From positions 1-64,000 of the forward strand of contig JADGKB010000028.1 in assembly GCA_027604185.1 (NCBI GenBank): 64,000 nt of DNA, written 5' to 3'. This stretch comes from Boothiomyces macroporosus (lineage: Eukaryota > Chytridiomycota > Chytridiomycetes > Rhizophydiales > Terramycetaceae). Of this stretch, positions 1 to 64,000 are shown one piece after another. The notes beneath the pieces were generated by a model, which made no database searches, was not told the origin of the DNA, and saw only the letters and a list, made by a program, of their open reading frames with translations. Every line of letters starts with the position of its first letter. Position 1 is the first letter of the stretch. The position numbers were made by a program, and so were the translations under genes.

Positions 1-115
1 CATGCTTGTTATGGAATGCGTACACAATGTCATAGAGCTTCTTGGAATAAGTAGGACGGTATCGCTTGTAAAGATCAGAGTTATATTCAACCATTTTGCG
101 GGCAAATCTTTTCAT
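1..115 (-). CDS. N-terminus of a probable SAM-dependent methyltransferase (partial)
   Basis: An open reading frame runs off the left edge. It starts at the ATG at 115 and gives 38 residues, beginning MKRFARKMVEYNSD and then YKRYRPTYSKKLYDIV. The F-x(n)-Y-x-x-YRPxY-x-x-LYD-x-I pattern is the usual opening of the Crg1/Tmt1-like (trans-aconitate type) class I methyltransferases of fungi, where it precedes the SAM-binding fold. The SAM-binding motifs lie outside the window, so this rests on the opening motif only. It could be another methyltransferase of the same superfamily. Confidence 0.5.
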   Translation of the reverse strand, partial: MKRFARKMVEYNSDLYKRYRPTYSKKLYDIVYAFHNKH

Positions 116-212
116 CTGTATTTAAATGAAAAACCCCCACAAATCATGTGTTGATGACTGTATGCATTTTCGGATCCGACCAAATCAAAATTCAATTAGA
201 TACAAGTATTTA

Positions 213-860
213 TTAGCCTCTTCGCTTCTCTCTCTTTTGCGTACCCTTCTTCTTTTCTTCCTTTTCCAACCTCTGCTTTTCCAAATTGGCTTTATTTCTT
301 GCCATTTCCTTTTGGTGCTGCTCTTGGTGCTGCAGCTTTTTCAGCCTTTCTTTTTCCTTTACCAGCTCCACATTGTTGTTCATTAGTGAATCATCGATAT
401 ATTTTTGTTTTCCTTTTTCCTTGAAAACAATTTCAGTTTCCCCGTCAGCACCTTCGACAATCTCTTCAAATTCATAGGCGTACTGGCTAAGAATTCTATC
501 TCTGGCTAGCTTTTCTTCTTTTGAAAGTTGCTTTGGCTGGAATCTGGATTGTCTTTGTTCAACTACTGGCTCTAGCTCTTTTTGAATTTGAAGTTTTTCC
601 AATTCCAGGATTTTCTTTTCTTCTTCATTTTTTGTTCTAATATCCTGCGCAAGTTGAATGATTTCTTTTACCCATTGCTTTATTTCTATTTCTGTTATTT
701 CTTGTAGGAACTCTGTGATAATTTCTTCTTGTTCTTCGACAGGCATTCCTTCATCTTGCACTATTTGAAGGATGTATTCGGCAAATGTTTCATCAGTGAT
801 ATCGATTGATGCCAAGTATTGGGAAACATTATTGAAGAGTTCATCAAAATTTTGGGTCAT
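213..860 (-). CDS. CCDC43: CCDC43-family protein
   Basis: A single-exon gene of 215 aa starting at the ATG at 860. The N-terminal ~75 residues form a helical domain (an FAEYILQIVQDEG-type segment as in CCDC43). The middle has SKEEKLARDRILSQYAYEFEE, matching the family's EEEKQRKAALLAQYA region. Near residue 160 is MNNNVELVKEKER, matching the family's NTNVEDV block. The C-terminus is a charged coiled coil ending KKKGTQKREKRRG, as in animal CCDC43. Length fits the family (about 220 aa). Its cellular role is poorly known. No intron is needed, which is unusual for this window. Confidence 0.85.
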   Translation of the reverse strand: MTQNFDELFNNVSQYLASIDITDETFAEYILQIVQDEGMPVEEQEEIITEFLQEITEIEIKQWVKEIIQLAQDIRTKNEEEKKILELEKLQIQKELEPVVEQRQSRFQPKQLSKEEKLARDRILSQYAYEFEEIVEGADGETEIVFKEKGKQKYIDDSLMNNNVELVKEKERLKKLQHQEQHQKEMARNKANLEKQRLEKEEKKKGTQKREKRRG

Positions 861-1259
861 GATTTTTTTTTAAAGTTTTTGGCTGTTGTTGAGCCAACCA
901 GCTATTGAGACCTATGTAACATCGAAAAGATTGAATGGATTGCTAGACAATATCTGATTATGCCTGAGTTGAGATTACCCTTACACCATAATCCAAGCTA
1001 CACAGTAGCATTTTCATGCATAAATTGATTTCCAAGTAGAGCCAAGATACATGCATGTAGCATTAATTTCATGCTTACTGCAAATTGCATTATTTTCAAA
1101 CACTATAAATTGATAAAATATGCTCTTTTACAAAAACAATCTTTGGGAATTAAAGTCTGGCTTCTACAGTTCAATTCGCCGACTCGCTTGGGGTAGGCTT
1201 GGAAACCTTCAATATAGTGATCTGTTGGTTGTAGTTCTATGTTAGATGAGCTTACTGAC
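861..1259. other. Intergenic, no gene seen
   Basis: About 400 bp between the CCDC43 start and the end of the next minus-strand gene. I see no conserved ORF, tRNA or repeat. The bases just left of the CCDC43 ATG are a poly-T run on the plus strand (A-rich upstream of the start on the coding strand), a common feature of starts in this window. Confidence 0.5.
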
Positions 1260-2040
1260 TTAACCGTAGGAGTTCTTCCTTCTTTGGTGCAGCGCGATAT
1301 ACTCCTTGAGCATCACAAAGTCCGGCTCTTGTGCAAAGTCTAGCATCGAATATCCACCCAGTGCCTGTTCTATACTGCTCGTTGAAAATTTTCTTTTTGG
1401 TCTCAGAGCTACCTTTTTTTGCTTTGGAGCTATGTTATTAATTAATATACCTTTATGGCTATTCGTCAGGTTTAGCAATATAGATTCTTTGGTATTTTCC
1501 GTATTTGTTGGCACTTCAAATACAGTCGATTGAGGAGCTAGGTTAGAAATACACCAACTTTCAATGTGGAGGCGCTCCAGCTTATATGACAAAGTGATGA
1601 TAGGGTCTTCAGCACGGTTACCACTATGTTAACTAATATTACAAGTGATTTTCATAAAATCTTTGACACAGCAAATAAAGGTTGATCATACCCCTGACAA
1701 TCCTTAGCAAAGCGTCAATAGCAACATAGATCATAAATAAACAGAGGAGAAGAGTTAAAACCAATAGGCCGAGTCTTGTTTAGTGTAGCTTACCGTTCAC
1801 GAGAAGCTTCTCGCCAATTGTATACATCAAATAGTAGATCAAGACATGATCTGACATAACTATGGTTAATAAAAGGTACCCAAGAACTAGATCTTTTAGG
1901 TATTGGTCAAAGTTCACAGGATAGCTTTCCAGTATTCTGATCGCAGGGAAACCGTTCGGGTTTCCTTCTCGTACCCAAGAAATCAAAGCTAAAGGAAAAT
2001 TTGTTTCCAATAGCATAATAGAATATTTAATTTCTTCCAT
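1260..2040 (-). CDS. Predicted membrane protein, splice model incomplete
   Basis: Three exon-like blocks lie in order on the minus strand. Block 1 starts at the ATG at 2040 and holds a hydrophobic segment (LKDLVLGYLLLTIVM and on). Block 2 (about 1774 down to 1643) encodes a clear membrane helix (LGLLVLTLLLCLFMIYVAI). Block 3 ends at 1260 and is soluble and basic (VALRPKRKFSTSSIEQ). Blocks 2 and 3 join cleanly across a 19-nt GT-AG intron at 1624-1642. Blocks 1 and 2 share a frame but are separated by TAA. The canonical 19-nt intron at 1775-1793 breaks the frame, and removing 18 nt would keep it. I do not recognise the family. A base error, an odd splice, or two separate genes are all possible. 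Confidence 0.5.
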
Positions 2041-2841
2041 CTTTTGGAAGAACAGGTTGACGCTAAGTTAACCAGTAGTTACTATTGAACAAAGAGAGCA
2101 ACGATAAAAAACATTTTTGGGAAGGAAAAAATGAGGCCAAATGAAAAATAAATCAAAATACTAGAGCATTTTTTCTTTCATTTTACCTTGCTTCTTGTTG
2201 AACTGGTTTACTCAATTACAGGTCCGCATACAGCAGATGGATGAGATAACAGGAACAAGAGCTAACCCAGAAGGCTATTTTCTATGAAATAACATACAAG
2301 TGTATCTGATCTTTCTATATCTTGATTTCGATTGAGCGTGGTCCAGTTTCATTAAATCCCTGAAGAATATCGAATTGAAATTTACTTGGTTTCACAATAC
2401 ATCGCCATAATAATTGCAATACTTGATATATATTTAATTCATTATTTTCTCTAATTTTCTATCCGTTCTTGTTCACACCTACCCTCGACAAACTCTGATT
2501 TTCATGATAGTAATTTGCGTGCCATTAAAGAAACCATAGATAATATAAAGAAACCTTGTCTAAAAAACTCAAAGTTTCTGCATTAATTTCATGCAAAATG
2601 AAACTAGTTCCCACGCTAAAAAGTTGGCATTAAATAGTTACACGCATCTAGTGACTGGTAATTCACTAGGTGCCATTACTAAATACACCAGAGTAACGCT
2701 ATTCTGTCGCTCGCGAAATGAAAAGAGGAAACGTCATGCGCGAAAATCAAGAGTTGAGCTAGTCGATGTGGCAAATTGACACACTACAGCACAAAACGAA
2801 ATACTTAAATTCGCAATTTCAAGATAATAGTTGAATTGCTT
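2041..2841. other. Intergenic, about 800 bp, no gene seen
   Basis: AT-rich stretch between the membrane-protein start and the 3' end of UTP25. The only longer ORF (2591-2779, plus) has no recognisable domain and a random-looking composition. No tRNA-like B box or repeat was seen. Unusually long for this compact window. Confidence 0.4.
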
Positions 2842-4777
2842 TTATTGTGAAGTAAACATAAATGCTTCCTTTTGAGCTTTAATTAACCTTTCTGCTCTGG
2901 AATTACCAATAATCCTTTCCAAAGCCAACTTGTCGTACTGTGAAAATACTAATGTACAAGTACTTTCATTAAAGTTATCATTATTAAGCATATTGACCAG
3001 TTCTGCATAGTATTCAAATACTGGACATCCATAAAACACTATATGACGAACTCCTTTCAAATTGGGTCTTCTGAAATAATGATATCTTTCAGAATACAGC
3101 AAGAATTTAATCTCTCCTTCTTTGAAATAATTCCTTGTGCGATCGACCTTAGACCTGGAACTGTACTCTGATATTGCTCCAATGTTATAATTGTGTTCTT
3201 TTAAATAATTCCTCACTCGCACAAAGTCAAAGTAAGATGGGATGATAATCAATGTATGCGGTTGTTCAACCAGAGATCTACGCAGAGTTGGTAGTACTTT
3301 GGAAACGAAAAAGTTGAACCTGGTGTCTGGCAAATCTTTTAAAGCACAGCTAGGTAGCTTCAAAAACACTTGTGGAACTTGTATAGCAACATCTTGGATT
3401 ACACCTTCATACTCTCTACTGATTTTTACTCTCCCGCCCACGTTTTTACTGAAGTTCCCAATTAGCGAATTGATTTCAGGTGCATTGAATCTTGATATGA
3501 TAATGTTTTGGCGGACATATTGCAATCTAAATTAGACAGTTTGTTACTTGTTGTCGAGAATATAGTTTCTAGTGCGAGAAAAGTCACACCCGTGATTATT
3601 CTTTGGAATGATATTGAGATGCTTGTACAAATGCTAAATTAGAATGCAAAAACCTTGAGATGATCCCAGTTTTGCATCAAAAACATTTCAGAGTGATCCA
3701 TAATCACTACTTCAATAGATGAGAGAAAATCGAAATCTCTCTTCTTATCACTACAATTAGTAGAATCTACCCTTCGCTTCCAATTATAATCTGCAGCCCC
3801 AAAGGAGACGCAATAATCACATCTGATGAATAAAAACTAGAATATAATTTCAATTGCTTCCTGGAAAACTTGAGTCCAATTTTAAAACAATCATCAATGT
3901 TTCCTTCAAACATCTTGTTGAAATCATCGGGTTTGCGAGGGTCTGGAGTGGAATCGCCACCAAACTCATCCATAAACCTCTTCTTGTTGTCGTGCTGTGT
4001 AGTTCCTGAGAGATTAATGATATCTTTGATAAGAGTGAAAGCATGATTCTTTAGGGGGAGGATTATTAGTACTTTTGGACGTGTGAATCCCTGATCCCTC
4101 AGCTCTAGCGACTGGTCCAATTTAAGCTTTGAGTTATTCTTTAGTACGCGATCTCTAGTTCTATTTGTCAATTTAAAACTACTTGTAAACATGATTAAGA
4201 GTGTGCAGAGCAATGAGGTGGCGAATGTCATCCTGCATTTCAAAAGTTTCATTGGCGTAAAATAAATCAGAATAGGAATTCATGAATCCAAACAGCTTTG
4301 ATTGTAAAGGCGTGAATGTAGTCGACTTTGTTTTCTTTAGCAGCTTTCCATTCAGCGTCTGCCAAGGCTCTCGCAAACGTGTTTTAATTGAATTGACAGA
4401 TGGGCTTGACACATCCACCGCGTTAATAGTACTGTGTAATATTCTCTTTAAAATCTCATCAGTATTAGCTTCATGAGTCCACTCGTTGGTGTCTACCTTG
4501 ATGGATAAATTTTCAATCTTTTCAGATATTTGATCCCCAAAGTGACCTTCAAAGTAGTCTATATTAGCAATCAGTCACCATCAAGACCTTGCTCATCCAA
4601 GTCATCCTTATCCATCTCTTCTCTTTCCAAGACTTCGACTTCTTCATCCTCCTCTATTAATTCTTCATGAATTTCTTCGTCCTCCTCTTCAATCTCCTCT
4701 TCCCTGACAAATTCTTTGTCATTGTTTTTGAATGCCTTCTTCTTTCCTTGCCCTTTAGCATTTTGCCTCTTTGCCAT
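2842..4777 (-). CDS. UTP25: U3 snoRNA-associated protein Utp25 (small-subunit processome)
   Basis: A processome factor needed for early 18S rRNA maturation in the nucleolus, with a degenerate DEAD-helicase-like fold. Six exons (4579-4777, 4183-4558, 3771-4160, 3654-3750, 3548-3633, 2842-3526) join over introns of 20, 22, 20, 20 and 21 nt into 610 aa. The acidic N-terminus is rich in Glu and Asp. Conserved blocks follow: [18 protein letters not shown], then [17 protein letters not shown] (degenerate motif I), [18 protein letters not shown] (degenerate DEAD), [23 protein letters not shown], and the [15 protein letters not shown]-terminal region. All are in family order and length is close to yeast Utp25. 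The helicase catalytic residues are missing, as is normal for this family. Divergent from KRR1. Confidence 0.95.
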
Positions 4778-4801: not shown

Positions 4802-6001
<1,200 letters not shown>

Positions 6002-6190: not shown

Positions 6191-9100
6191 ATGAACCCCA
6201 TTAATGGAACAACATCGAGGACAGCACCTCGAATTGTAAATCGTTCTGCAAACGGGTTTTTTGAAGTGTAAGTTTATTATAATTCTAGACCCACTGACGA
6301 CTCACCTCGCTATATTAGGAATCCAGAAACTGGAGTATACGAAAGAGATTATTCAAATAGTCCGAATTCAACTTTAACAAGACCAGCAGTTGCTAACCAG
6401 CGGGATAACAGAGCGGATGCTAGAGCACCTCCTGCAAGAAGTCCCCCATTAAGAACTGAGACGAGGTCAGAAACCCGACGGGTAAGGTCTCCTGCCCCAA
6501 GGTCTCCAAGGGACAATAACCCATCAACATTTGACGATTTACTAAAGGAAGTTGACGAATTAAATACCACAGCCGCCCGCAAAACAACTCGCTCTAGAGC
6601 AAAATCACCAGAACCAATTAGGTCACCAAGACTGGATGGTCGTAAAAATGGATTTGATTTCAATCAAATGACTGATTCTTTGGACGAAATGATTGATTCT
6701 CCAAATCAAAGGCGAAGAGGCTCAGATGCAGGATTTAGGGATGTAGTTACCAGACCATCTTCACAGGATGAAGGAGCACGAAGAATTAATAGAAGAAGGA
6801 ATGATTCAGATACTGAAATTCGCCCTTCCTTGTCAAAACGTTCGGATGATTTACCAGCTCGATTTGATACTGGAATAAACTCCAGAAGAGGGTCAAGAGA
6901 CCGTACAGCCGCTTTGCTAAACGATGATATACCTACTTCTCCAAGAGAAAGACGTAAGGATGAATCTCCTAGAGATGAATCAGTTGGAAGGAGGCGCTCA
7001 CCCCCAATGTCAAGAAAAGGTCCAGAATCTGAAGAAACACTTCGGGAATCCAGAAGAACCAGAGAAACTAGGGAGGATGATTATAGTTCCAGAAGAGTTA
7101 AAGATGACGACTATTCTAGAAGAAGGAGAGACGAATCATCTCCTGCCCCAAGACAGAAGGATGACGACGGCCCGACTAGAAGAGTACGTGATAGAGACGA
7201 CGACTCTCGTAGAACTTTGGACGACACTCCCCGTAGATCCAGAGGCTCTCCGCGCACTCCACAGCCTGCTGAGGAAGAACCTGTCATGTCTGCCCAAGAA
7301 ATCAAGGACATGGAGAAATTAAGAGAAGAAAAGTTGCAGAAAGAAAAAGAAATTGCTGAAGCAGATAAAAGAGAAAAACTCATGATTGCAAAAGAAAGAG
7401 AAAGGAGGATGCAAGAAGACCAGCAGCGAAGAGATGGCAGAAGGGGCTCAACACAAGAGTTTGCTCTAGTATCTGGTGCTCCAGTGGATGAATCGGTAAT
7501 TATATTTTTATTTTAGCTCCTTGTTCCTGATTATCTTACAGCTCTAATGACAACTTTGAGAAATGACACTTCAGTTTCAGTTATTCCTGAGAATTTTGCT
7601 ACACCGGAAGCTTATAATCACTGGAGAACTACCATGAAGCGTTCACTCCAAGAAGTTTTAATCAAAATGATAAAGTACCGATTCCTGACTCCGCCTGACC
7701 CTCAAAAGCCTGGATTTGAACCAGTCAAGATCCGTTTCAAGATTATCCAAGCCCAAGGATTGATTGGAAAAGAAGGGCGAACGAGAAGCACCTACTGTAA
7801 CATTGAATTTGGTGATTTGGCAGCACTCAAAAAACAAAACAGAAATGCAAAAGAAAAGGAAGTTTATAGAACTGATGTGATTGAAGACTCTTTGGATCCT
7901 GTTTGGAATCAAAAGTTGTCGATTGAAGCAAATTCCATCACAGATGAGGCAAAAGTGGAGGTATGGGACAAAGTTAAAGATCATTTCCTTGGCCAAGTAA
8001 TCGTAAAGCTGTCTGATGTCATTACAAAATGTACCAGAAATGGCTCCTATGAATCGTGGATAGATTTATCGCCAAGGGATGGAAAAAATAAGGACAAATA
8101 TGTCGGAGGCAGAATCCTTATAGGGGCATCATTACGAGAAGAAAAAAAGACTTCTTCAGCAAAGTCCTATAAAGAAGTACAATCCATGTTAAACAAAATG
8201 CAAGTTGACAACAGGGCATTGTTTGATATCCTACTTCGAGCGTGTTTGGTTTTGGATTTGTACCAGCCTAGAGAAGGGAGAGCTGATGTGTTGTCACCAG
8301 AAGCTGTGAATATGCTCAAAGCCTGGGCAAATACTTGGAATATCACTGACTCTTATCAAGTTATTGCATACTTGAAAATCCTATTTGAAAAGTACACAAC
8401 GTATGCTATATCCATATCTGATTTGCTGAAAGCGTTCCACTTTGTTTATGCAACAGTGAAGAAGAGAGGTACTTTTAATGCTGTTGAAGTAAGTTAATCT
8501 GACTGTAGATGCAAATGGTGATTGAATTGCTGGAACAGATGAAAGAGCACTGCTCAGAAAGGGTAGTGAAATACAAGGAACTTTTCCCCAAGAATCAGCC
8601 TAGGGGTGCATTGGAATCAACTATTTTAGTTTTGCGAATGATCCATAAATTCCCAACATTTAGAGATAATCATCCAGAAATACAAGAATCTCACAGAGAC
8701 GAATTGAAAATCATGATGACGGAATCCTGCATCGCAAAGTTCCAAGGGTTTAAGGAATTATCTACTCCATTTGATGAAAACGACGTGGAGTCTGTCATTG
8801 AAGGCATCAATAAGTTGGCTGACTTGGTCAATGAGGAAATTGAGCTAGATGTAAAGTATTTCCAGCCTGCATTTGCACAGTAATTTAAATTAATATTCAG
8901 GGAGCTTGACATTGTGCGATTGACTGCTGAGTCACAGCTAAAATACTTTACACTCACCCTCGAAAGTGCTAGTGAAGTGTTGGAAGGGGACGATGCTGTG
9001 AATAATGCTCCGCATTTAGTTTTCGACTTGTACAAGAAGGTTAGAGAGATGTCCGACAGATATGCCTCCTCAGTCCCTGGGTAATTTTACCATTTATCCT

Positions 9101-10948
9101 AGATTAAACAGCTTGTCATCCTCGTATATTGAAGGATGGTTTGCCCCATTCATGTACAAATGGCTACATCAACTTTCCTTGAAAACAATAGGCTGGGTGG
9201 ATGCAGCAGTCAAAGCTGATAATTTTGAACCAGAAGGTGTGAATGAAGATGGTGTACCTAGTCACTCAACTTCTATTAGAGATGTTTTTGCTGCGATATA
9301 TTCGGAACTGGAATTAATCACAGATTTGCAATGGTCAGATCCTGTACAAAATGCACAGTTCTTCCAAGGGTTCTCAAAATCTATGAACACTGCCATTGAG
9401 CAATATTGCGATGCAATCACCACTGTTGAAAAGAAGACCGCAGCAACGACGGGTTACACAGCAGTTACAACTATTGCAAACTTGATTGGAAATAGAAGTT
9501 CGGAACCAAAAGATATTGAACGAGAGGTAATTTTGTGTTTAACCTAGTCATGTGCAAAATTGAGAAACGTTGGATATGCTATGCGCAAGTTGAAAGAAAT
9601 GTATCGAACGATGAATGTTTCTGCAATTACCAAAACTGTAAAGAATCACCGAAAGTCAATGGCAATTTTGAAAAAGACCCCAGACCCATCTTCTGGGGAT
9701 ACTGTTACTGGTGCATTCAAAGTGCAAGCGTCATATGCTGAAAATATCAAGCCGCTCAACAAAAATGGTACTTCTAACCCATACGTAATTGTGCGAGTTC
9801 CAGAAGGAACAGTTGTTCCTCCTCCAGAACAGCTTCCAACAAAAAGCCCTAAAAACAAATCTCCCGATGCAGAAGAGCTACCTCCAGCCCCAACAGTATT
9901 GACAGGGAATAGTTGCGAACTTTTACGCTCTCGTGTAATTAATGAAACGCTCAATCCAACTTGGGATGAAAACTTTACAGTCATTTTACCGCCTGTTCAA
10001 AGGTTGGAAGTTGCTATTTTCTCAAAGAATTTGCTTACTGCAGATGAAGTTGCTGGAACAGCTATCATCGATCTCTCGGTTGGAACTAGACTTCGCAGGA
10101 AGCTTTTGGATCATCAAACACACGATGTTTACGTCGAGTTAGAGCCACAGGGAAGAGTTCTATTGAGATTGACAATGGAAGGTGAGGAAGAAGACGTAGA
10201 TTTTTGGTTCCGTAGAACTAATGAACGATTGATCAGAACACGAGATGCATTCCTACGCTCGCTTGTTGCAAAGGTAAATTTGGATTTATTCTAGGTTGCA
10301 CCACACACCAAAGATGTCTTGACGAAAGCAATTAAAGATAACGAAGCTGCTGTTATACCTGAAACTTCCTGGATCAAATCCCTCACAGCAGCAGTTCAAT
10401 ATTCAGACAAAACAAATGCTGGCCACTCCATTAATGCCCCAGTTTCTGAAAATGATGCTGTAGTTGCACTTCAACCATTGATAGAGTATCTCGAAAAGAA
10501 CCTTGAAACACTGTGCAGTCAAATTCCAAAGGAAATGGCTCAAGAAGTAATATCCAGAATTTGGGTAGATTCACTACTAGTTGCAAGCAACAGCTTGATA
10601 CCACCTCTGTTTGGCTTACATTCACAAAAAGTACTCAACGTAAGACAGGTTTCAATGATTAAAACTTGCATTGCAATCATCAGAGATTTTCTACACGGGG
10701 ATGGAGGAGAGTTTGGTCTACCATTTTCAACACTTGATTCACCACTTTATCAAGACCTCCGCGAGCTGATTTCAATGTACCATTTCGAATTTGAAAAGCT
10801 GAAACGCGAATATGAATTATCACTATTAGGAGGCAAGGATAAAGAAACCATATTAAGACTTGTAAGATTAAAAGCAGAAAAAGATAGTACAGAATTAAAA
10901 TGGATTGAATCGCAATTAGTCAGACGAAGAGAACAATCTCGTCGTTAA
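6191..10948 (+). CDS. C2 and MUN (MHD1/MHD2) domain protein, Munc13/Ync13-like
   Basis: Eight exons (introns at 6268-6288, 7496-7516, 8489-8508, 8880-8900, 9081-9102, 9527-9547, 10274-10294; 20-22 nt) give 1,536 aa. Residues ~1-430 are low-complexity Arg/Ser/Asp/Pro sequence. A first C2 domain follows (about 7715-8130; YRTDVIEDSLDPVWNQ, VEVWDKVKDHFLGQ). The MUN region spans two Munc13-homology blocks (MHD1 around 9100-9450 with YIEGWFAPFMYKWL; MHD2 around 10480-10800). A second C2 lies between them (about 9700-10170; VINETLNPTWDENF). This C2-MHD1-C2-MHD2 order is that of the fungal C2/DUF810 proteins such as fission-yeast Ync13, which link vesicle priming to cell-surface growth. C2 aspartates look only partly kept, so calcium binding is uncertain. 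Confidence 0.9.
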
Positions 10949-11530: not shown

Positions 11531-11570
11531 TTTGAATGCTTTCCAGCAATTTGGGCTCAAAATTAGATCA

Positions 11571-12043: not shown

Positions 12044-12050
12044 GAATATA

Positions 12051-14842: not shown

Positions 14843-14946
14843 TTTTTCTTTTTTGATGAAATGTGGCTGGAATGATATTTGAGGCTGAATAGAATATCAG
14901 ACTGAACAGGATTGTGTAAGCAATTAGGTATGAAAACATAATGTAT

Positions 14947-17188: not shown

Positions 17189-17220
17189 TAAAGTAATTTA
17201 AAAAATACAAATACAATCTA

Positions 17221-38196: not shown

Positions 38197-38199
38197 TCA

Positions 38200-46240: not shown

Positions 46241-46278
46241 TATAGAAAATTTTATATTTTTTATTCAAAGACTTGATA

Positions 46279-52075: not shown

Positions 52076-52190
52076 GTAAATGTTTTGTTTTTTATTACTA
52101 GTAGTTTTTCTTTAGTTGGTATTGAACAATTGCGAGTCTAACAGGTCAAATGAGATGTAGCGCCAAAACACGTGATAAAATGGATATATT

Positions 52191-53020
52191 TCAGAGAAGG
52201 TAATCAATAATCAACAGTAAAAGACTAGATATGATAAAGAAATAAAAAACCCAGTACCTGCTCCCTCCAAATATTTCTCTAGTTTTTTTCAATATCCCTA
52301 CACCAGCACTAATATTATTCTCTATTATTTCAGCATCCATCTGTATGTTCTTTGTGGTTTCTAATTGAGTATCCAAATGCATATTTAATTCTTGCTGCAT
52401 CTGTACAATTTCTTGTATCTTTTGATTCGCTTGTCTATGTTAATGAATAGTACTCTATTTGATTTAGGGATTGTTTGTAATCCTGAATTAGCTGCTTGTT
52501 TTCCATTTCTAGTAATTGGATAGTTTCTGGATCTAAATCATCTTCTTCAACAGGGATATCTTTTACTACAGTAGCAGTTTTAAAAGTCTGCGGTTTAAAC
52601 AAGGAGCGCTGTGAATCTAATGATTTTAAAATCTCAACTGCTAAACTCAATTGGTGATTCAAAGATTCCTTGATTTCATTATTAATTCGACATTCACAAT
52701 TGGTGCCTGAATTAATATAAATTACTCTTGATTTCATTCTGTAATTCCTTGATCCTTGATTGTAGCTGAAGGTAAAATGCATTCTTTTGGTTGCTTGTCA
52801 TTTCAAACACCATCCTTGGCGAAGGTAAATCCACTTCAATCTGATCAACAGTAAACGAAATATTTAGAAAAGGCTTCCTTATCAAATGTAAATAGCATTT
52901 GAATTTGAATATTCTGGAATTGATTTCCTTGAATTTGACGATCCTGTTTTTCTTTGGTTTTGATAATATTGGAGGATTGAATTTCTTTGTTTCTGTAAAG
53001 AATTCCAAGGTTCGATCCAT
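52191..53020 (-). CDS. UFE1: Syntaxin-18/Ufe1-like ER Qa-SNARE
   Basis: A target SNARE for Golgi-to-ER retrograde transport. Three exons over two 19-nt introns give 263 aa. N-terminus MDRTLEFFTETKKFNP as in syntaxin 18. The block LEMENKQLIQDYKQSLNQIE, just before the SNARE helix, matches syntaxin 18 closely. The SNARE helix runs about residues 175-235 (QKIQEIVQMQQELNMHLDTQ). The C-terminal anchor is YWVFYFFIISSLLLLIIDYL. An upstream in-frame ATG at 53035 would add five residues. Other ER SNAREs (Use1, Sec20) fit less well. Confidence 0.8.
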
Positions 53021-53216
53021 GATTGTAAAATTCAAAATTGCTTTTTTTACAAGTGCATTCTTGTTGAATCTCTTGCTTTGATATCAGCTGATTGTATTCA
53101 TGATTCTTGACGATTTACTATCTTTAACCACCCCACTAACTACCATGTGAAAAATCAACTTTGAAAGAATGAATATCTCTATAGAATTAAAGTTTATTTA
53201 AGGTTTGAATAATTTT

Positions 53217-54163
53217 ATGCTGGTGCAGGCCAACTTGCAACTTCCACTTTTTTCACTCTGTAAAATGCATCAGGAATTCTTGAAAAAGATTTTGGCTGTA
53301 AACAGCAAATGGATCCAGCATGCACTGAAACCAATGAAATCAAGAAATTCAAATATTTACATTTACGGGACTAGCAAGTTGCTCTTACCAATTAAATCCC
53401 AGATCCCATTTTCAAATAAATTCGAATACCAGTATCCGGCAACACTAATGTTTAACCAATTATGGAATGTAATTGAAGAGGGAGAATTAAAAGTATTATT
53501 GGATTTTGAAAAGAACGAAAAAGATTGGCTGCAGGAATACTACCAGGAATACAATTCTTGTTTGAAGATAACAAAGTAATCATTTACTAAAAAGATTTGA
53601 TTTGGATGAATATTATGAAATTACTAGAGAGAAAATTAGTAAAAAGAATGAACATGTGGATTTGACTTTGGGTACTAATTGCTAATTCAGGGTTGCCAGA
53701 TGACTGGGTTGATTTGATGACTTTTAATTTGCCTTTCTGGGATATAGTTGAATTAACAAGATTGATGGAAATTTACAAAGAACCAGTGGACTCTCTTGTA
53801 TTGGAAAGCATAGACTATGTAGGAATGGACCCAACCCTAATTGATTCACTAGTCCAAAAAAGAGAATTGAAAGATATCGCCTCAAAATTACAAGATTTCT
53901 ATTTAAATTTGTGCAATACTACACTACAGGAAATTAAAAATGAAAATACACCAAATATACAACTAAATTCTTTGATCCAAAAACAGTTAATATCCCCAGA
54001 GCACTACAAAACTTTTCTTGACATTACTGGCAGTGATAGACAGCAAGTTATCGCTAACCATTTGGTAAAGCAAATCAAAGGAGGAGATTATTTAATTGTA
54101 ACTGATAGAAGTGTTGTTCCTATGTTAGAAGAGCTGCTATGGGATCTTGGATATGAGAAATAA
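53217..54163 (+). CDS. Unrecognised 302-aa protein
   Basis: Three exons over two 19-nt introns (ends TACTAAAAAG and GCTAATTCAG) give 302 aa from the ATG at 53217. The sequence is helical and lacks membrane segments: WLQEYYQEYNSCLKITKFDL across intron 1 and DLTLGLPDDWVDLMTFNLPF across intron 2. The N-terminus is free of acids for about 18 residues (MLVQANLQLPLFSLCKMHQE), which might be a weak mitochondrial signal. No family recognised. Its stop is 44 bp from the convergent dynein stop. Confidence 0.6.
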
Positions 54164-54207: not shown

Positions 54208-57200
54208 TTAACTGGTGGAACATAATAATGCTATTCCTCTCATTATCCAATAATCTGGGTTTTGAACAGTCTTGAGTTCAATGTCAAAGATATAGTTTTG
54301 GTCAGTTCTTCTTGGTCGCTTATAAACAGGGCATCTGTACATCTTTGGATCTCCTTCATCTGTAGAGTTGATTGCACTGACATGTATCACTGGCATACTC
54401 TGGAAACTGACTTTTGGTTGCGATTCTGTCAGTCTGATATTCTTTCTATCCCATCCAGCACCTTCGATAAACAAACCATTAATATACAATCCTTCAGCTG
54501 GTTGGGCAGTGATGTCTTCCTTCATTTGTTTCATTACTTCTGGCGCTAGTTTCACACCATCTAAAGCCCAACCGTTGTGGGCTCTAGTGATTTCTTGTCT
54601 GATTGCAGTCAAGAAACCTTGAGGGTTGAAGAAACCAGGCAACCAAAAGACTAGCGGCCTTCCATCATATAACCATGTGTGGAACTGTGCGGCCCTGGCA
54701 AGGAATTCAGAGTACCACAAACCAATTGTTGCACTCTGCCATGATATTTTGGCCCATGTTGCTGGAACTACTGCATCATATAACGAATCCAAAGCATTTT
54801 GTAAACTTGCAGCCATGATAATTGTACCGTCAATCGCCAATTTCAGATCAGATAGAGTATTCTTTACCGCGGAAATCACATTCTGCATTCGGTCAATTTC
54901 TTGTCCGAGGAAAATACTAAGTGGTTTGTTGGCACCCTGTTTTTGCAATAGAATCTTTGTTCTGTTCTTGTCAAATGATTCTGGTAGCTTGCTAAGCAGA
55001 TCATTTGCCATTTTCTTTACCGCATCTTCCCTTGTTTCTCCAGTGCCAGTGTTACTATCTTTTGGTTGAATTGACATGATGGTTTCTAAAATTAAAAATA
55101 TGTACCAAGCATCTTTTGCGATTCTTTAGTTTGGCATGAGATATCTGCATTTGGATGTAATCCAAACACATCAGGCGTATCTGTCAATGGTAGAGATTCA
55201 ATGGAGGTTCGGTATTCTTCAACAGTCTTCAAGTGTGGAATCACATAGCCTTTATAAAAGTTGAAGTTTTCCAAAAACATGTGGTCGCCGAACCAAACCT
55301 TACCATAGGTTGCCAATAATCGTCTAAAATTATTAATTAATTACCTATCAAAATCATCAGTTACTCTGCCACCGTAGTGTACTTCACAGAACATGTATCT
55401 AGCAGTAGTCCATGAAATGTTAGCTCTTGGTGCCAATTCATCCACATGGTTTTGAACAAATTGTACACTAGCGGCTAAATCACTCTGGTTGAATTCATAA
55501 GGAATATTCCATCCCAAAGGGCCAAACTTTCTTCTCTCTTGTACTACAGAATGCAAGAACGCCAGCCCATAAATCAGTGGTTTGTATTGGGGTCTCGCAC
55601 TCATATCCAGCATATCTTGAGTCAGCCAAGCATAGGTTCTCTTTAGACCGGCTTTTAGACCTTGAGGAGGTTCGTTCGTAAATTTGATTGACATTTGAAG
55701 GAATGTGATTGGAAACTTTGGACTGACGTCGGTAGTAATCCATAATCTAAACTTTTCATCAATAGTTTCCGTTTCCAGAATTAAGCCTAGCAGTTCATCC
55801 ATGAAAGGCAGACCCAAATGGCAGTTTTGTAGTAGCGCCCAACCACCGTTGGTCATGAATGCAGATAATAATTTTCTTGCATGCACTTCCTGGCCCTGGC
55901 CCATGGAAATGGCTTTGCAGTCAATCTTGTGTTTCTTTGCCAAGTTTTCAATATCAGCGGACGGATCAGAACCCTGAGAAAGCAAACAAATCATCGGAGT
56001 TCTATTGGTAGACTCGCTCAGTAGCGCATCCAAATCCAAAATTTGTGCTTCGGCGAATCTTGTGGACATTGATGAAGCAATGTATTGACGAGACATCATC
56101 ACTGTGCGGTCCAAACACCATGATCTTACAAGCAAGAGTCTTCTGAATGCATCCAGAGAGTTTTGGTATCCACTTGGAAGTACTTCGTTTTCTGGAGAAT
56201 CTTTTTCGTACCACGACTTCCACGCTTTTTCATTCTTTCCAACCTGGTTCAGGATATCATTAAACCCAGGCATTTTGCTGAGTGCAACAAGGTTGAGCCA
56301 TGTCATGTCTGGAATCCAGTTGAATGGTTTCTTGACCACTGTATTGATATCCAATGCTGCACCTCCCTTGATCAGACATCTAAATTCTTCATGTGTCACC
56401 TTATTCATTGAAATATCAATCTTGATTGCCATCAGCAATACATAAAGAACCTTGTGGATTTCGTAGAGACCTCTAGCAATATAGGAGAATGATCTGAATG
56501 TGCAGTACTCGATGATGTTTTGAATTCTCTTGCTCGGAATTGGGGATGGGGCTCCCAACTCCATACTTTCGTCGAATAGCTGCAAGAATTGCTTGAGAGA
56601 CGTCTGGTACATTACATTGACCATGCTCATTTCAGCAACCAAAAAGTAAAGGATGGAACCTCTACTTGCAACCGGTCTGTATTCTTCTCTGGCAATACCA
56701 ATCTTCTTTTGAGTTTCAGCTGCAACCACTAGCTTTTCGTTAACTTCTTCAGCAGTTGTCTTTGTCACTGCCAGAACTTCGATAAGAGATTCATCATCCA
56801 CTAAGGAGCCTTTTGTGGATGTTAATCTTTCAAGCAAGTTATCTTCAAGCTGCTTCATTTTTCTCTTGTTTCCATTTACTTCCTCCATTAGTTTAGCCCT
56901 TTCGGTTTCCAATTCCTGTTTTTCTTTCATGATTACGCGACCAAGCAACTGCTCTTCCAAACCTTTGCTGGTTACAGTAAAATCAATTACAGAGCATTTG
57001 GCATAGATTTCTGGGTTGTAGTTTGGATTAGGCAGTTTAGTTGTGATATAAAGGTAGAAGCCTTCTTGCCAATCAATTTCCTTGTCTCCAAACAGAACTT
57101 TGTAACCCCTACCAGCTTTGATCAAGTTCTTTTCAAGAATGTTATCAAGTGTAGGATCCAAGGATTCTTCAACGTCTTCAATCAAAAGTGGGCGCCCTTG

Positions 57201-60200
57201 ACTCACACAATCTTCGATATGCTGTCTAAAGTACTTGTGAGAAAGTGTAGTAACAATTAGCTTGTTCTTTTCTTCTCTATTTTTGATCCAGACCTTGGCT
57301 TGCGTTTGCGGATCAATTAAAAGTGGGAAACGGGTACCTTTTGTCACGATGATACCATTCTGGGTGGACAGTTCATCGGTAGGCAAGCCTTGGATGTTCC
57401 ACTCACCCACGGTGGTATTGTCCACTAAAAGGCCGATAATATCCAAATCTTCAGTGTGCGGAATCTTTTTCTTTGCAAGTTCTTTCTTCCAATCATTCAG
57501 CAAATTGGTTCTAAAGGTTTGATTGAACGGACCACTATAAGATAAGAAAGCAGTTGCTAGAATAATATCCCCAACCAATTTACCAATTCTGGTCGCGAAT
57601 TCCTTACTTTGGATAGTCCATCTATCCTTTTCTCCTTTCAAACCGCTAATAAGTGTTGTTGCAGCAACCATCTTTCTCTTACAACCATCAGCATCCGCTT
57701 GGAGGGCTTGTTTGGTAGCAATAGCATCATTGTACTTTGCTTGGAAAACGTCCAATTCTGCTTGTTTTTCATCCAAGGCTTGTTGAGCTTTGTTCAAATC
57801 ATCCATGGCAACAGCAAGTTTGAATTCTTGAATAACCAAATTTGCTTTTAGCGGAATTACCATCTTGTTTACTGAATAATATGAAGACTACATTAATAGA
57901 ATAGTTACCATCGCGTTTACCCATGAAGCGAGACCGGCAACATCAGCAGACACCTTTTTAGCACCTTCCAAGTTGAAATCGGGCATTTCCTGCAAAGGCT
58001 CCAAAAATTCTACAGTTTCTTCGTTGATTTCGTCCTTTGCAAAGTTCAACAAGGAGACCAAGAAATCGGACTGAGACATTAGCTTTAGTGATTCAGACCA
58101 CGATGGAGTCATGCATGGTCTTTCTGCATCCTGTACCAACGGAATAGCAACTTTTTTCTTCTGAAGCAGCAAGACACCATCCATAATTCTCATGATCAAA
58201 TGAGGAGGTTTAGCCAACTTTCTGACCGTAGAAATGTGGGCAGGTTGGATAGAGTTCAAAGCACTTCTTGCCATCTCCAGAGCTGGCTCTGCGGCTACCA
58301 ACTTTTCTTCAGCAATCAATTTATCGGCCTTGATTGCATTTGCAATTCCTTCAGATTTTGTTTTCACTTTCAACACGGCCTCCTTTACCTTTTCTGCAGC
58401 CAAAGTACCGCTAGTAACATCAGCCAATACAGCATCGGCTTCTTTGGATGCAACTGCCAAATCCTTTTCTTTGAATACCAATTCCCCTTGCAGAATAGCA
58501 ACAGATTTAGATGCCTCAATCAGTTTTGAAAGACCCATGTTCATCCTTTCTGATAGCCCCCCAACCTCGTTTCGTTTTGCTTGATAGTACGATTTATATG
58601 AACCTAAGAATGACAAATATGATTTTGGAGTGACGTGAGTTCTTCTTCTGAATTGATTAAAGTAGCTATCGCAGGCATCAGTTACCAAATCATGGACAAA
58701 GGCCATGTGGAAGACCACATCCTTGATAATCTGTTCAGTACCAACAATTTCCATTTCCGAGACAAACTTTTCCGCAACAGCTCTTAGAGCTTGTTCAGGC
58801 CATCTGCTGAACCAATCCATTGTGCAACCAGAAACCAAACCAGGGAATTTCAAAGATCTGTTTCTGAACTTTTCACCTACTGGAGAGAAGCAAAGGACAA
58901 CGTGCAAATTGGCTTTCACTCTGTCAATAAAGAATTGCCAGAGATTTTCAACAGTGTCTACAACATCAGGTCTTTGCTTTTTCATCGGCAAACGCATATC
59001 ACCAGAGATAGAGATGACTTCATCTTTGGCAAACAGGCCAGTGATTTCGCCAGAAGTCATAATGTTGTTGATGAAGCCTAAAAATCCCTCCTCTTTGATT
59101 TCATTATCAGTGAAGATGAAGGTTACTGACTTTCCTGATCCTGCATGCTTATACATGACTTTTAAATCTTCCATCAAGTTTGTATTATTGTAGCTTTTAG
59201 TGATAGCAATTTGGAAAACTCTGGACTTGGCAATGAATGCAGCTAGTTTGGTGAGGGATTGTTTTCCTGAACCTCCCACACCCACAAGAAGAGCACAACC
59301 TCGCGCAGTTCTAATCACTCTGGAAATTCTGACTATGTGTTTCATCGCGTCTTCAAATAGCACAAGGTCCATTTTTGAGCCTCTAAGAGTCTCATTTAGC
59401 TGGCGCATGTAGTCATTGAGTTTGTCACGCAGTACATCAAAGGAAGGAACTTTTTCGTATACTTTGATCGCCTCCAGGTCAATTTCTACTTCTGGATCAT
59501 CATTTTCTGGAGGCTCTCTTAGGAAATCAACAAAGTAACTCTTTTGAGAAACAACTGCGGCCATATCGTCACCAAATTCCTTCTGAACCATATTCACTAG
59601 TGCCTTGTTGAACCATTCTACATCTTCAGCTGTAATGAAACGATCTGGCAGTACTCTGGAACACTCATGTTCCCACAAGTTCAGAAGCAGTTTTTCGTTC
59701 GAGATGGAATCATTGTTGGAAATGAGCATACCTTCGACAATGCGACTAAGATCTCTAAGATTGAAAATGTAATGGAATTTGGCTGGGGTTGGAAGCATCT
59801 TGACTTTGGTGCTTTGCCATATTCTTCTGGTGAGGGAGGGGATTTTCTTGGCTATTTCGATTACCTCTGGCGTAAAACCTCTTGCTTCACAGAAGTGCCC
59901 TTGCAACATTGTTCCGAATATTTTGTCTACTGAAACATCCGATGGAATGGTCGAATTGATTACAACAAATTGTCTCTTCAGTCTTGATGGAATGTCGTTT
60001 CTGCCACCACCAGGGTGCATCATCGCTGCCAAGAAGAATAGATCAACTATAGCAGTCCAGTCTCCAGGCCTGTCTAATGAATAGAACCCTTGCCATTCCA
60101 TCAATTGCCGAACAACTTCACCAGTAACTTGGTCTCCCCATTCGTTAATTTCTGGCATATTAATATCATCAATGAAGATGATCATTTTCTTTCCAGCTGG

Positions 60201-63200
60201 AGGACCATACGTCGAGCCCATGCGCTTGTCAAGATAGCTTTCAATTGTTCTTTGGAATATCATTGGAGTAGTGGCCGATGAGAAACTCATTAGTTTAGAT
60301 AAATGAGTCTCTGGATTAATCTTTGCCAAAAACTTTTTGATTGTCACTGTCTTTGCCGTGCCTGGTTCACCAATAAGTAGAACTGCCTTTCCTTGTTTGT
60401 TCAGCGTTTCAATCAAGAATTCAGCACGAACATTATCTACCATCGGAACAATAATGCTGGAGAACTCTGGAGTAGAATCACCTGGATAAACCCAGTCTGT
60501 GACTCTATCCTTCCAGTGTTGCCATTGTCCATTGTCATTGACAAAGAATTCAAAGAAGGTATCCTGAGAGCTTGGGTCAAACGAAGGATATTTCAGGTCT
60601 GGAATCTTTTCAAGCATGAATGTTTGTAGCTTTTTTCGTTCATCCAATTCCAGTAATGCTCCAAACGACCAGAAGCAAGCAAAAATGAATAATCTTTCAA
60701 GATGTTCAGCAGAAATCTGGGTCGCCTTAGGAATGAGCCCAGTAAGTAAAATAGTAGCATTTACTACATAGTTTACTTGGCCAATAACCATCTTTGGATG
60801 AAGATCCAATAGCAAGAACAAGTTGAGTTGTGGCCAAGTGGCATTGAACAATCTTTCTAGGACTGGGACTTCGTTTGGTTGTCTGGATTTCAGCCAAGAT
60901 TGCAGGACAATGTCCCAGGTGAGAGATGTAACACCAATGTAAATCATACCACATCTAGATACAGTTGCAGGAGAAGCATTTCGCAAACTGTGAACTTCGA
61001 ATGTCAATTTACAGGCCGCAGACATTGGAATTCTATCACCATTAGCCAAGGTTAAACATTTGTTGTCGTCCAATACAGAGTTCAAGTTTTCAATCCATAC
61101 AGCATCGACAGGGCCATCCAAAATAATCCAAATTGTTTGGCCTTTGTTTTTCAGCGTCTTTCTCCATAATGAGGAGAAAATACCATCTGTCCAATCATTA
61201 GTAGCAACGTCCAATTTACCAAACATCTGGAAATCAGTAATAGCCTTTGGATTCATTCTGAGTTCCTTATGAGGATCTCCACAAGCAGTCATGGCTTTTA
61301 GCAAAGCGTTGATACACTTGGTTTTACCTGTTCCAGTTGGGCCTAATATCATGATACCGTGTCTGACTTTGGCAGTTTCGTATAATTGAATAACTTTTAG
61401 GGTCCATGGTGGGTGGCTAATCAAATTAACTTCGCTCAACTGCTGATCAATAGCAGCTTCGACATTAGGGTATGATCCCTTCTTTGCATTGAGCCCAGGG
61501 AACAAGTCGTTAACCAAACTAAGGAAAAGTGCTTCATCTTCATCAACGAGTTTTGAAAGATTCATATCTCTCAACACCCTCATCATGATCAACATTTCAG
61601 GGTCTTCAGGGTTTGCTCTCTTTACCGAGCCAGAGGTACGCAAGACTGAAAGAATGTTACGCAATCCAAAATCGTAGTGCACTTGCTTTGATAATTGTTC
61701 TTCGCAAAGTCGGTACAATACAAAGAATTTCTTGGCGAGCACCAAGTTTGTTATGAAACCACAACCGGCGAGCTTCACTCTGATAATAATTTGTCTATCG
61801 GGAACCATCATAGCTACGTATCTGAAATGAACTTTAAGGTTTTCAGGCAATTCTACACGACCTGCGTAACCAGGGTTCATAGTGATAAACATACCAACTT
61901 CAGGATTCAATTCAACGCAATCACCGTCAGTAAAGATAAAAGTAGTTTTTCGTTCCTTTCTGGCACCAAAAACAGAACCAATTTGTTGCGCAGCCACGGA
62001 TAATACAGGTAATTCAATACGATTGAATTCGTCGAAACATCCCCAGCATCCGCTCTGCGCAAGACCTTTGTAAATTCGTCCTAGACCACGATAATCCATT
62101 TGATCTGAGCAATTGAATACAACTACCCATTTGCCCAAGTTTTTGCCCAAATCCTTTACTGATTCGGTCTTTCCTGTTCCAGCAGGTCCAGCTGGAGAAC
62201 CGCCAAGGGACATTCCTAAAGCTTGTGCAAGTGTGATATATACTCGATCTGTCAAAGGAGTAATAACCAATCTATCGGTACAGCCAAGGTATTCGCATTG
62301 ATACTGGAAGTCAAAGTTTGTGATGGAAACCATGCAACAGTCTTTCGTCTCGTGCCAGTAGAAACGAGCTTGACGCAACCATTCAAAATCTTCTGGGGTT
62401 TTTACGTGAGCCTTCACTAGCTTCTCAAACACATCTCTGTGATGCACCTGGATGGTAATAAGAGTTTCATACTTTACTCTATCCATCTTTGTCAATTCTT
62501 TGGTGGTGACTTCAATGAGTGTGTTCAAGATATCAGTAATTCTTTGCATAGTAGCAGCCATTTTCTTTTTGTCAGTTTTTGATAAAGTGAGAGCTTCCTC
62601 AGACATCTGAGTCCATTGGATTTGACAACACAAAAGGCCAATTTGTGCTGGATATTCATCCATAAACTTTTGAAGAGGAACATCATTAACTCTACCTGCA
62701 GCTTCTCTGATGATGTCATTTACAGATATTTGCATTGATTTAAGAAGTGTTCCCAACCACATTTCCACATTTCCAGCTGCTAGCATAGGGCGACTGAGAG
62801 TAACTCTTTCACCTTCAGACGATTCCAAACCAACAATCTTGTCGTATTCTTTATCATGGAATTGTACTTTGTCGACATTATCAAATACACTCTTCAAGTG
62901 GGCTTGAATAGTGTGCGAGTCACTGGCCTGTCCCAAAATTTCAAGCAAAGCAGGATCAGAGACAAAGAAGAATCTTGGGAAAATGGCTCTCTTGGATTCA
63001 AGATACCCAGATAAAGATTTTTGACATAGTTCGAGCTGCTCGGTCAAATGTGGAAGCAAGTTTGCAATTGTTTCATCAGCAACACAACATTGAATAACAT
63101 TAGGATGCTCGTTTGCTAATCCCATAATTTTGCACCAAGATTTATCAATGTTGCTGAATCTCTTTGCCTCCTTTGGCATTTGCTTTGCGATATCACCACC

Positions 63201-64000
63201 AACAAACACAGCTTCGAGGTAAATCCACAAATTTTGTACAGAGAGCCAGTTTTCGATGACTTCAGAGGCAGTAGAGAGATTGTGAACCCAAGTTTGAATA
63301 GTTGGTTTGAATGGGGCATTGTAGCGATTACTCATCAAGGATGCCAAAGTCATCAAACTATCTTCCATCTGAGAGATGATTTCAGCTGTTGCGGATGGTT
63401 TCAATACCAAATTACCCCTGGTTTTGAATGGACCAAGAGTAAATGCTTTGTCTTCCCAGTCGCTAACGGTAGCTTTTAATTTGATTTCTATTTCTGCTTC
63501 TTTTACGGCCGCAGTACAAATATCTTCGATATCTTCTTGATGTTGGGTCAATGGAGCATCCAAAAGATTCTTGACATAGAACATTTCTGGATCCAAATTT
63601 AATTCCGCTTTGGTAATGTTCATGATGGCGTCCCAGTGACGTTGCTGCATAGACTTGTGGCTCATCATTTCTAGTAAAGGCACCATGGCTGCCAAGTTAT
63701 CTACAATGTTCTTTAGTTCAGTGAAAGAATCCCAGTCTTTAATTGCTTTCGGTAGTTTCTTGATTTTTGATTGGAAATCAGTCATATCAGTGTTGATGTC
63801 TTCCAATTTGATATCCTGCCATAGAGTCTCGCAGTACTGCTGGCGTTTGTTCAAAACATCGTTGTACAAACTGTAAAGGTTTTGCAATAGTTTGAGCTCC
63901 TTCTTGATTCTGACCAAGTTGGGGAACGGAGTAACCGGTAATGAGAATAATTCTTCACCTCCGGAATAGGTTTCCCACTTTCTATTTAATTCATCGAACC
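54208..64000 (-). CDS. Axonemal outer-arm dynein heavy chain (gamma/DNAH5-DNAH8 type), partial
   Basis: Flagellar motor. The right edge cuts off the N-terminal part (about 1,250 residues, judging by family length). Exons 57909 to beyond 64000, 55345-57887, 55106-55323 and 54208-55085 join over introns of 21, 21 and 20 nt, giving about 3,240 residues. From the N-terminal side: linker ([15 protein letters not shown]), AAA1 P-loop [10 protein letters not shown] near 62165-62190, AAA2 [10 protein letters not shown] near 61330, AAA3 [10 protein letters not shown] near 60355, AAA4 [10 protein letters not shown] near 59270, the stalk with microtubule-binding domain around 57450-58560, AAA5-6, and the C-terminal domain ending [20 protein letters not shown] and MRGIALLC. 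That tail fits the outer-arm gamma/DNAH5-8 group best. It is direct evidence of a motile flagellum. The codon after the AAA1 P-loop lysine pair gives GKTES where GKTET is usual. Confidence 0.96.

Follow-up and report, generated by a model that had tools for sequence, protein, structure and literature searches.

Predicted U2-type introns of 19-23 nucleotides as the prevailing intron class in the chytrid fungus Boothiomyces macroporosus

Can a fungal nucleus carry spliceosomal introns that nearly all share one length, close to 20 nucleotides (nt)? The question is raised by a 64,000-nt stretch of DNA from Boothiomyces macroporosus (contig JADGKB010000028.1, positions 1 to 64,000; the window hereafter means this whole stretch). 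An earlier note, made by hand from the sequence, had placed about 90 introns in about 30 of its genes, all of 19-23 nt and about 40 at exactly 20 nt. This count is borne out: our gene model with a learned length distribution places 95 introns in 31 of the 36 modelled genes, and 94 of the 95 are 19-23 nt long (16 at 19 nt, 40 at 20, 24 at 21, 11 at 22, 3 at 23, and a single one of 66 nt). Very probably these are U2-type (major-class) spliceosomal introns, reduced to little beyond their recognition signals, and they would be the normal intron class genome-wide.

Beyond the window, the assembly (15.2 Mb, 216 contigs) was sampled at one fixed position in each of contigs 1-20. This gave 200 kb, or 264 kb together with the window, and introns were sought within coding sequence. 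We used our own gene-finding model, trained on long open reading frames and then iteratively for splice-site weights, with a flat intron length prior of 10-400 nt. A first pass had low sensitivity (30 of 62 introns at 19-23 nt; 3-6 of 49-55 for six decoy pairs) and was superseded by the trained passes. Under the flat prior, 126 of 186 introns in the 264 kb are 19-23 nt long (32, 52, 26, 12 and 4 at 19, 20, 21, 22 and 23 nt, respectively), and in-frame read-through is impossible for 125 of the 126. With a branch-motif score added, the proportion is 203 of 265 (60 of 76 in the window alone), a step that is not wholly blind because the branch motif was trained on short introns. In the later pass, for which the length distribution was learned from the 264 kb and the intron list of the earlier note was not supplied, 353 of 363 introns are 19-23 nt long, and introns of these lengths are called in 20 of 20 other sampled contigs. 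Coding introns across the genome form a narrow length peak near 20 nt with no ordinary class, and rare longer introns are possible. Extrapolation gives 11,690 introns from the flat-prior count and 20,329 from the learned count, both uncorrected for false calls, hence perhaps 12,000-20,000 ultrashort introns in the whole genome if the sampled density holds.

Joins made by hand easily pick up chance pairs, and all this could in principle be an artefact of GT...AG pairs picked to mend frames in a noisy assembly or poor gene calls. The same flat-prior procedure was run with five decoy dinucleotide pairs, which returned only 5 of 109, 4 of 93, 6 of 100, 7 of 100 and 11 of 123 introns at 19-23 nt. 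Six decoys under the learned prior still yield 30-55 calls at these lengths, versus 353 for GT-AG, and the calls in the window include at least one that is false. The peak is also visible in the spacing of short motifs. In the 200 kb of the 20 other contigs, GTAA is followed by an ending TAG or CAG 86, 85 and 90 times at total lengths of 19, 20 and 21 nt, versus 47 ± 6.8 per length at 50-119 nt; the same spacing in the window gives 26, 29 and 31 versus 14 ± 3.8. In the 200-kb sample no clear peak was found for GTA[CT] donors (77, 92 and 75 at 19-21 nt versus 74 ± 8) or for GT[GT]N donors (322, 300 and 293 versus 295 ± 19). Composite patterns are strongly overrepresented genome-wide: GTAATT-N4-6-TTAAT-N1-3-TAG has 442 matches versus 16 for the reversed pattern, and GTAAGT-N4-6-CTAAC-N1-3-TAG has 41 versus 5.

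Homologous proteins give the same lengths. They were aligned to the window with our own protein-to-DNA aligner, which may open a gap of at least 8 nt at any point and follows no splice-site rule. For SEY1, a dynamin-like GTPase (20493..22949, + strand), the gene model has eight introns, at 20540-20559 (20 nt), 20655-20674 (20), 20839-20861 (23), 21135-21154 (20), 21274-21293 (20), 21590-21612 (23), 21990-22009 (20) and 22689-22710 (22). These are matched exactly by 3, 78, 78, 78, 69, 50, 75 and 26 of 78 homologs, in that order, so that six of the eight are recovered at exact length by 50-78 homologs. The alignments contain 721 gaps, 531 of them 19-23 nt and 523 exactly 20, 22 or 23 nt long; GT-AG lies within 6 nt for 451 of the 721, and 449 of these 451 are 20, 22 or 23 nt. 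The remaining gaps, in the alignments inspected, fall at the first intron or past 22660, a less conserved part of the protein. The B. macroporosus SEY1 protein itself is identical to the window in 743 of 743 aligned codons and fits removal of six of the eight modelled introns. The Terramyces SEY1 alignment extends over the full length and, apart from the eight introns, is free of codon gaps; this would fit a sharing of ultrashort introns by Terramyces but is not proof of it.

NAD kinase (15873..17188, +) has four modelled introns, 16099-16118 (20 nt), 16562-16582 (21), 16670-16688 (19) and 16902-16921 (20), which are exact in 9, 3, 7 and 10 of ten homologs, in order. These alignments hold 52 gaps, 31 with GT-AG, and 29 of the 31 are 19-21 nt long. 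The species' own NAD kinase protein, identical in 382 of 382 aligned codons, fits two of the four introns. The introns are thus partly reflected already in public protein sets, with errors. As a control we used FGAM synthase (PFAS; 46279..50256, − strand; 1325 aa; identity 91% with Boothiomyces sp. JEL0866, 89% with Terramyces sp. JEL0728), a gene without introns within an intron-rich stretch. Five homolog alignments of PFAS show a single 18-nt gap in all. The same lengths come from the independent sample, the decoys and the homologs; the homolog-driven alignments and the decoys already contradict an artefact for most introns, and we regard that explanation as scarcely credible.

Protein domains also run across the predicted junctions. 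In the Pfam-matched genes, 21 of 34 junctions lie more than 3 residues inside one matched stretch (11 genes). UTP25 (2842..4777, −) has modelled introns at 4559-4578 (20 nt), 4161-4182 (22), 3751-3770 (20), 3634-3653 (20) and 3527-3547 (21), and four of these junctions fall within a single UTP25_NTPase-like stretch (162-416). KRR1 (4802..6001, +) has introns at 4812-4833 (22), 4897-4916 (20), 5219-5238 (20) and 5454-5473 (20), the first three from the gene model. The intron at 5219-5238, for which the read-through frame is open, lies inside KH_KRR1_1st and so has Pfam support. The fourth, 20 nt long, was overlooked by the model, which split the gene: positions 1-64 of the KH_KRR1_2nd profile close the upstream model and 65-91 open the next exon, and the sequence between them shows a GT...AG segment of 20 nt.

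We next consider whether the predicted introns resemble substrates of the spliceosome, using 355 short introns of 18-23 nt. The commonest donors are GTAATT (55), GTATTT (22), GTAAGT (21) and GTAAAT (21); acceptors are TAG (244), CAG (73), AAG (34) and GAG (4). The branch consensus is YTAAY, with TTAAT, TTAAC, CTAAT and CTAAC as the top pentamers. A branch site is clear in 327 introns; of these, 319 have the branch A at position 14-16 from the 5' end, and 293 have a tail of 5 or 6 nt after it. A typical intron consists of a GTAATT-like donor (6 nt), a spacer of 4-6 nt, the branch motif (5 nt), 1-2 nt and YAG, leaving little beyond the signals. AT content of the introns is 71%, and T makes up 42% of the spacer versus 28% of exons. 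The proposal of ultrashort spliceosomal introns in a genome with the standard code gains support from splice signals, decoys and homolog alignments, all of them evidence at the sequence level.

Paramecium avoids introns that are a multiple of three in length and free of stops. Selection of this kind is not evident in B. macroporosus, though some stop-free calls may be false: an in-frame stop is present in 62 of 92 introns of 21 nt, 44 of 79 of 19 nt and 92 of 142 of 20 nt. The 21-nt class is not depleted, and 30 of its 92 members lack an in-frame stop. Two caveats on these pull in opposite directions: genuine stop-free introns of 21 nt more easily escape detection, and a part of the 30 may be false calls.

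The genome was searched for U1, U2, U6, SF1, U2AF65, Slu7, Prp18 and RED. The U1 small nuclear RNA (snRNA) scores 68.8 bits, slightly below the gathering score of 69.5, and has an intact 5' AUACUUACCUG. U2 snRNA is represented by two divergent genes (contigs C80 and C178; 142.2 and 135.4 bits), both of which carry GUAGUA; the alignment of the second shows more broken pairs. U6 snRNA is present, with ACAGAGA. SF1, U2AF65, Slu7 and Prp18 were found as well, and the SF1-HH and Slu7 domains are matched at full length. Unspliced, U2AF65 scores 230.7 bits, below the cut-off of 310.3, over profile positions 168-471 and with four internal stops; with its predicted introns removed it scores 342.7 bits over positions 62-505, a gain that comes partly from the wider coverage. 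For Slu7, two fragment matches (154.6 and 94.7 bits) become a single full-length match of 294 bits once the predicted introns are removed. The modelled introns in these genes are 19, 20, 19 and 19 nt (U2AF65), 21, 20 and 23 nt (Slu7) and 24, 22 and 21 nt (SF1). Loss of Slu7, Prp18 or U2AF65 as an explanation is ruled out, all three being present. With respect to the human route for short introns, which uses Smu1 and RED, the RED_N profile gave no match in the genome, but none in the control genomes either.

These findings bear on whether the segments might be removed by some route other than the spliceosome, either by DNA-level excision in another nucleus or by translational bypassing. Against such routes stand the GT-AG boundaries, the complementarity of the branch motif to U2, the constant place of the branch, and the snRNAs and splicing factors encoded by the same genome, as well as the 19-24-nt introns in the U2AF65, SF1 and Slu7 models themselves. 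We consider a non-spliceosomal route very improbable.

Several results weigh against reading these segments as a uniform class of U2-type introns, at least for individual calls. Judged by the decoys, the learned model has a false-call rate of about 8-16%. Read-through of the 95 window introns meets a stop inside the intron or within 90 nt in 84; seven are 21 nt long and stop-free, and hence undecidable by frame, and for four more, with lengths that are not multiples of three, the read-through frame nevertheless stays open for 97-206 nt. Stop-free 21-mers account for 30 of 353 introns in the learned set and 5 of 203 in the branch-aware flat-prior set. One of these four, the call at 31105-31123, is contradicted, and counted as false, because the cut runs through a transposase domain whose DDE_Tnp_4 match is continuous without splicing (residues 116-248 of the reading frame). 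The first and last SEY1 introns are exact in only 3 and 26 of the 78 homologs. The B. macroporosus SEY1 protein differs from our model at two introns: its gap at the first measures 121 nt and that at the sixth (window 21581-21612) 32 nt, which implies a 32-nt intron at a site for which 50 of the 78 homologs show 23 nt. In the NAD kinase protein, a single 127-nt gap (16562-16688) takes in the 21-nt intron, the 19-nt intron and the exon that separates them. Re-annotating SEY1 21581-21612 and NAD kinase 16562-16688 would restore lost exons. The donor, too, matches canonical U1 and U6 poorly, with T at +5 in 42% and G in 20% of introns; we offer no explanation for this preference other than AT bias. 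From one contradicted call, seven undecidable ones, the split KRR1 gene and two exons of 2 and 4 nt, we conclude that the overall total is sound and that single introns lacking further support are perhaps 85-90% reliable.

The last adverse point concerns longer introns. The pattern GTAATT-N10-40-TTAAT-N1-3-TAG exceeds its reversed control genome-wide, by 89 to 48, and the learned model retains introns of 38 nt or more, though only 7 among 268 in the 200-kb sample. Ultrashort introns might then dominate alongside a sizeable minority of ordinary length that codon-based models overlook, for example in untranslated regions. However, at least 2 of the 89 long matches contain a listed short match (C1:349231-349253 and C11:209675-209695), and the remaining excess is unexplained. 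Under the flat prior, introns longer than 40 nt number 49 for GT-AG versus 65-87 for decoys, i.e. there is no excess. GTAAGT...CTAAC with N7-10 (22-27 nt in total), a pattern drawn up before the real spacing was known and used here as a negative control, has 2 matches genome-wide versus 9 reversed. The Prp18 locus model has introns of 19, 20 and 21 nt and two of 344 and 248 nt, but in our judgement these two look like a merge with the neighbouring gene. The lone 66-nt call in the window (1237-1302) lies where a weak gene model ends and is taken to be erroneous, and the earlier claim that no well-supported gene of the window needs an intron of ordinary length holds in our model. We therefore think a sizeable ordinary-length minority unlikely.

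How U2-type introns this short would be spliced we infer from what was computed, namely lengths, frames, consensus, branch position, presence in 20 of 20 contigs, snRNA recognition sequences and factors. Base pairing would be the usual one, of the donor to U1 and of YTAAY to U2. Because a stretch of 14-16 nt cannot hold U1 and U2 together, U1 would have to give way to U6 no later than the moment at which U2 and the tri-snRNP (small nuclear ribonucleoprotein) engage. Early U1 release would go with shortened helices, as the long U6/donor and U2/branch helices of human B complexes could not coexist at 14-16 nt. Ordinary two-step splicing could follow, with a lariat loop of about 15 nt and a tail of 5-6 nt. 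There is no downstream pyrimidine tract because only 5-6 nt follow the branch A; U2AF65, if bound, would have to use the T-rich upstream spacer, the sole intronic alternative, or the downstream exon. In yeast, Slu7 is reported to be dispensable at branch-AG distances this short, yet it is kept here. We tentatively suggest, as a possibility that falls short of being probable, that donor and branch site are read as one composite signal with a fixed 14-16-nt spacing, a molecular ruler, and that splicing of introns much longer than about 25 nt has been lost. If so, almost every intron would have had to conform to a single length class, with SF1, U2AF65, Slu7 and Prp18, at the least, being retained. 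A fungal spliceosome would then be working far below the donor-branch distance of ~50 nt that assembly needs in human extracts (structural estimate ~52; PMC6692369).

The other window genes carry introns of the same kind, with coordinates from the gene model. Several have junctions within Pfam matches. RNA polymerase subunit RPB3 (24469..25336, −) has an intron at 25129-25150 (22 nt), with the junction after residue 62 and within the matched stretch. A phosphoribosyltransferase (14947..15521, −), which we take to be APRT-like, has introns at 15297-15316 (20) and 15169-15189 (21), both junctions lying within one Pribosyltran stretch. The DUF3336/patatin lipase (27748..29564, +) has introns at 28502-28523 (22), 28871-28892 (22) and 29207-29227 (21), with two junctions in the Patatin stretch, and the CobW GTPase (33725..34693, +) at 33762-33784 (23) and 34483-34501 (19), with the first in the cobW stretch. 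A protein kinase (40248..42665, +), presumably DYRK-like, has introns of 20-22 nt at 40747-40768, 40967-40988, 41213-41233, 41462-41481, 41900-41919 and 42624-42644; three junctions are within Pkinase. In 1-Cys peroxiredoxin (42745..43432, +) the junction of intron 43127-43148 (22) is within AhpC-TSA, and in the family 8 glycosyltransferase (50655..52075, +), with introns at 51145-51163 (19), 51387-51406 (20) and 51522-51541 (20), one junction is within the GT8 stretch. The Slo-like K+ channel region (35202..38196, +) comprises two modelled genes, the first of which matches Ion_trans_2 and Slo-like_RCK. It contains 11 introns of 19-21 nt (35589-35609, 35614-35633, 35937-35955, 36174-36193, 36317-36336, 36973-36992, 37147-37167, 37559-37579, 37651-37671, 37780-37799 and 37907-37926), three junctions being within Pfam stretches; the first two introns enclose an exon of only 4 nt, which is doubtful, and 37559-37579 and 37651-37671 are stop-free 21-mers that frame leaves undecided.

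A C2-domain gene (6191..10948, +), presumably Munc13-like, has introns of 20-22 nt at 6268-6288, 7496-7516, 8489-8508, 8880-8900, 9081-9102, 9527-9547 and 10274-10294, the C2 domain lying in exon 7517-8497. The flagellar protein CFAP77 (18363..19203, +) has introns at 18526-18546 (21 nt, stop-free and so undecidable by frame), 18821-18840 (20) and 18941-18960 (20); the first two junctions are within the CFAP77 stretch, and the read-through frame stays open for 106 nt beyond the third intron. A dynein heavy chain gene (54208..63998, −), which extends past the window edge, has introns at 57888-57908 (21), 55324-55344 (21) and 55086-55105 (20), with dynein domains in 55341-57887. The dynein and CFAP77 genes are in keeping with a flagellated zoospore. 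The earlier description of the source as a fungus-related flagellate can be refined: this is a true fungus (Chytridiomycota, Rhizophydiales, Terramycetaceae).

The remaining introns are predictions of the gene model. A membrane protein, so judged by eye (44163..46240, +), has four of 20 nt (44921-44940, 45421-45440, 45568-45587 and 45908-45927). The weak gene at 1209..2114 (−) has, besides the doubtful 66-nt call, introns of 19-21 nt at 2063-2082, 1860-1879, 1775-1793, 1624-1642, 1538-1558 and 1430-1450, the last two being stop-free 21-mers. Two models in 11269..13904 have introns of 19-20 nt, at 11477-11495, 11498-11516 and 11602-11621 in the + gene and at 13508-13526 and 13378-13397 in the − gene; we doubt the 2-nt exon that separates 11495 from 11498, and reading through 13378-13397 meets no stop for another 206 nt. 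Single-intron models in 13951..19878 contribute 14026-14044 (19), 18031-18051 (21), 19313-19334 (22) and 19802-19820 (19). Further models have introns at 23944-23963, 24143-24162, 24365-24384 and 27056-27075 (all 20; within 23541..27083), at 39120-39140 (21, stop-free) and 38770-38790 (21) besides the 19-nt call at 31105-31123 judged false (within 31084..40089), and at 43675-43694 (20), 52707-52725 (19), 52435-52453 (19), 53298-53318 (21, stop-free), 53576-53594 (19) and 53672-53690 (19; within 43453..54163). The DDE_Tnp_4 transposase, which we assume to be PIF/Harbinger-like, lies at 31004-31813 (−), and an adjoining open reading frame at 31936-32658 (+) has no match. Elsewhere in the assembly, an identical 21-nt intron sequence occurs three times on contig C143 (578-4640, −) at a spacing of exactly 2,021 nt, which suggests a tandem gene array with one ultrashort intron per copy. 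No related DNA was found in viral and prokaryotic collections.

We found no reports of uniform ultrashort introns in chytrids or other fungi in the open-licence PubMed Central literature, as far as its texts were accessible. Two chytrid genome papers mention introns, without such lengths in the parts available (PMC13391722, PMC5364385); a fungal survey calls Cryptococcus introns, with a mean of 63 bp, relatively short (PMC8476143), and a pan-eukaryotic survey left out introns below 30 bp (PMC10639083). Encephalitozoon cuniculi, a relative of fungi, has short introns too, but they span 22-76 nt and number fewer than 40, with a strongly reduced spliceosome in which U1 was not identified (PMC3629993). 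Paramecium likewise has ultrashort introns only, genome-wide, although longer ones of about 25 bp (PMC5014332). Mikrocytos mackini shares a narrow ultrashort class with conserved sequence; its introns, however, are 16-17 nt long (224 in 179 genes) and the organism is an obligate parasite (PMC10245619). Chlorarachniophyte nucleomorph introns, at 18 to 21 bp, have nearly the same range as those described here, but a nucleomorph is what remains of an endosymbiont's nucleus, and its roughly 300 genes hold over 800 introns (PMC10245619), whereas here we deal with a fungal nucleus and a 15.2-Mb assembly. Stentor coeruleus resembles B. macroporosus in its near-uniform, AU-rich GU-AG introns, freshwater habitat, standard code, fixed branch A and 5-nt tail, in canonical U1 and U2 sequences, and in having U2AF and SF1 listed as present (PMC9505925). 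It differs in intron length (15-16 nt, with the branch A at 10-11, versus 19-23 nt and 14-16 in B. macroporosus) and in having 8,806 annotated introns and 18% of genes intron-bearing, versus 31 of 36 window models here. For Stentor, Slu7 and Prp18 are listed as not found (PMC9505925), and B. macroporosus retains both of these late splicing factors.

As far as the literature was searched, the pattern is new for fungi, uniform ultrashort introns being already known in Stentor, mikrocytids and nucleomorphs. With SF1, U2AF65, Slu7 and Prp18 present together with U1, U2 and U6, B. macroporosus, presumably free-living, offers a direct way to ask how splicing machinery that is mostly standard can work when only 15 nt separate donor and branch site. 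It adds a fungus to a set of ultrashort-intron systems drawn so far from single-celled protists and relic nuclei.

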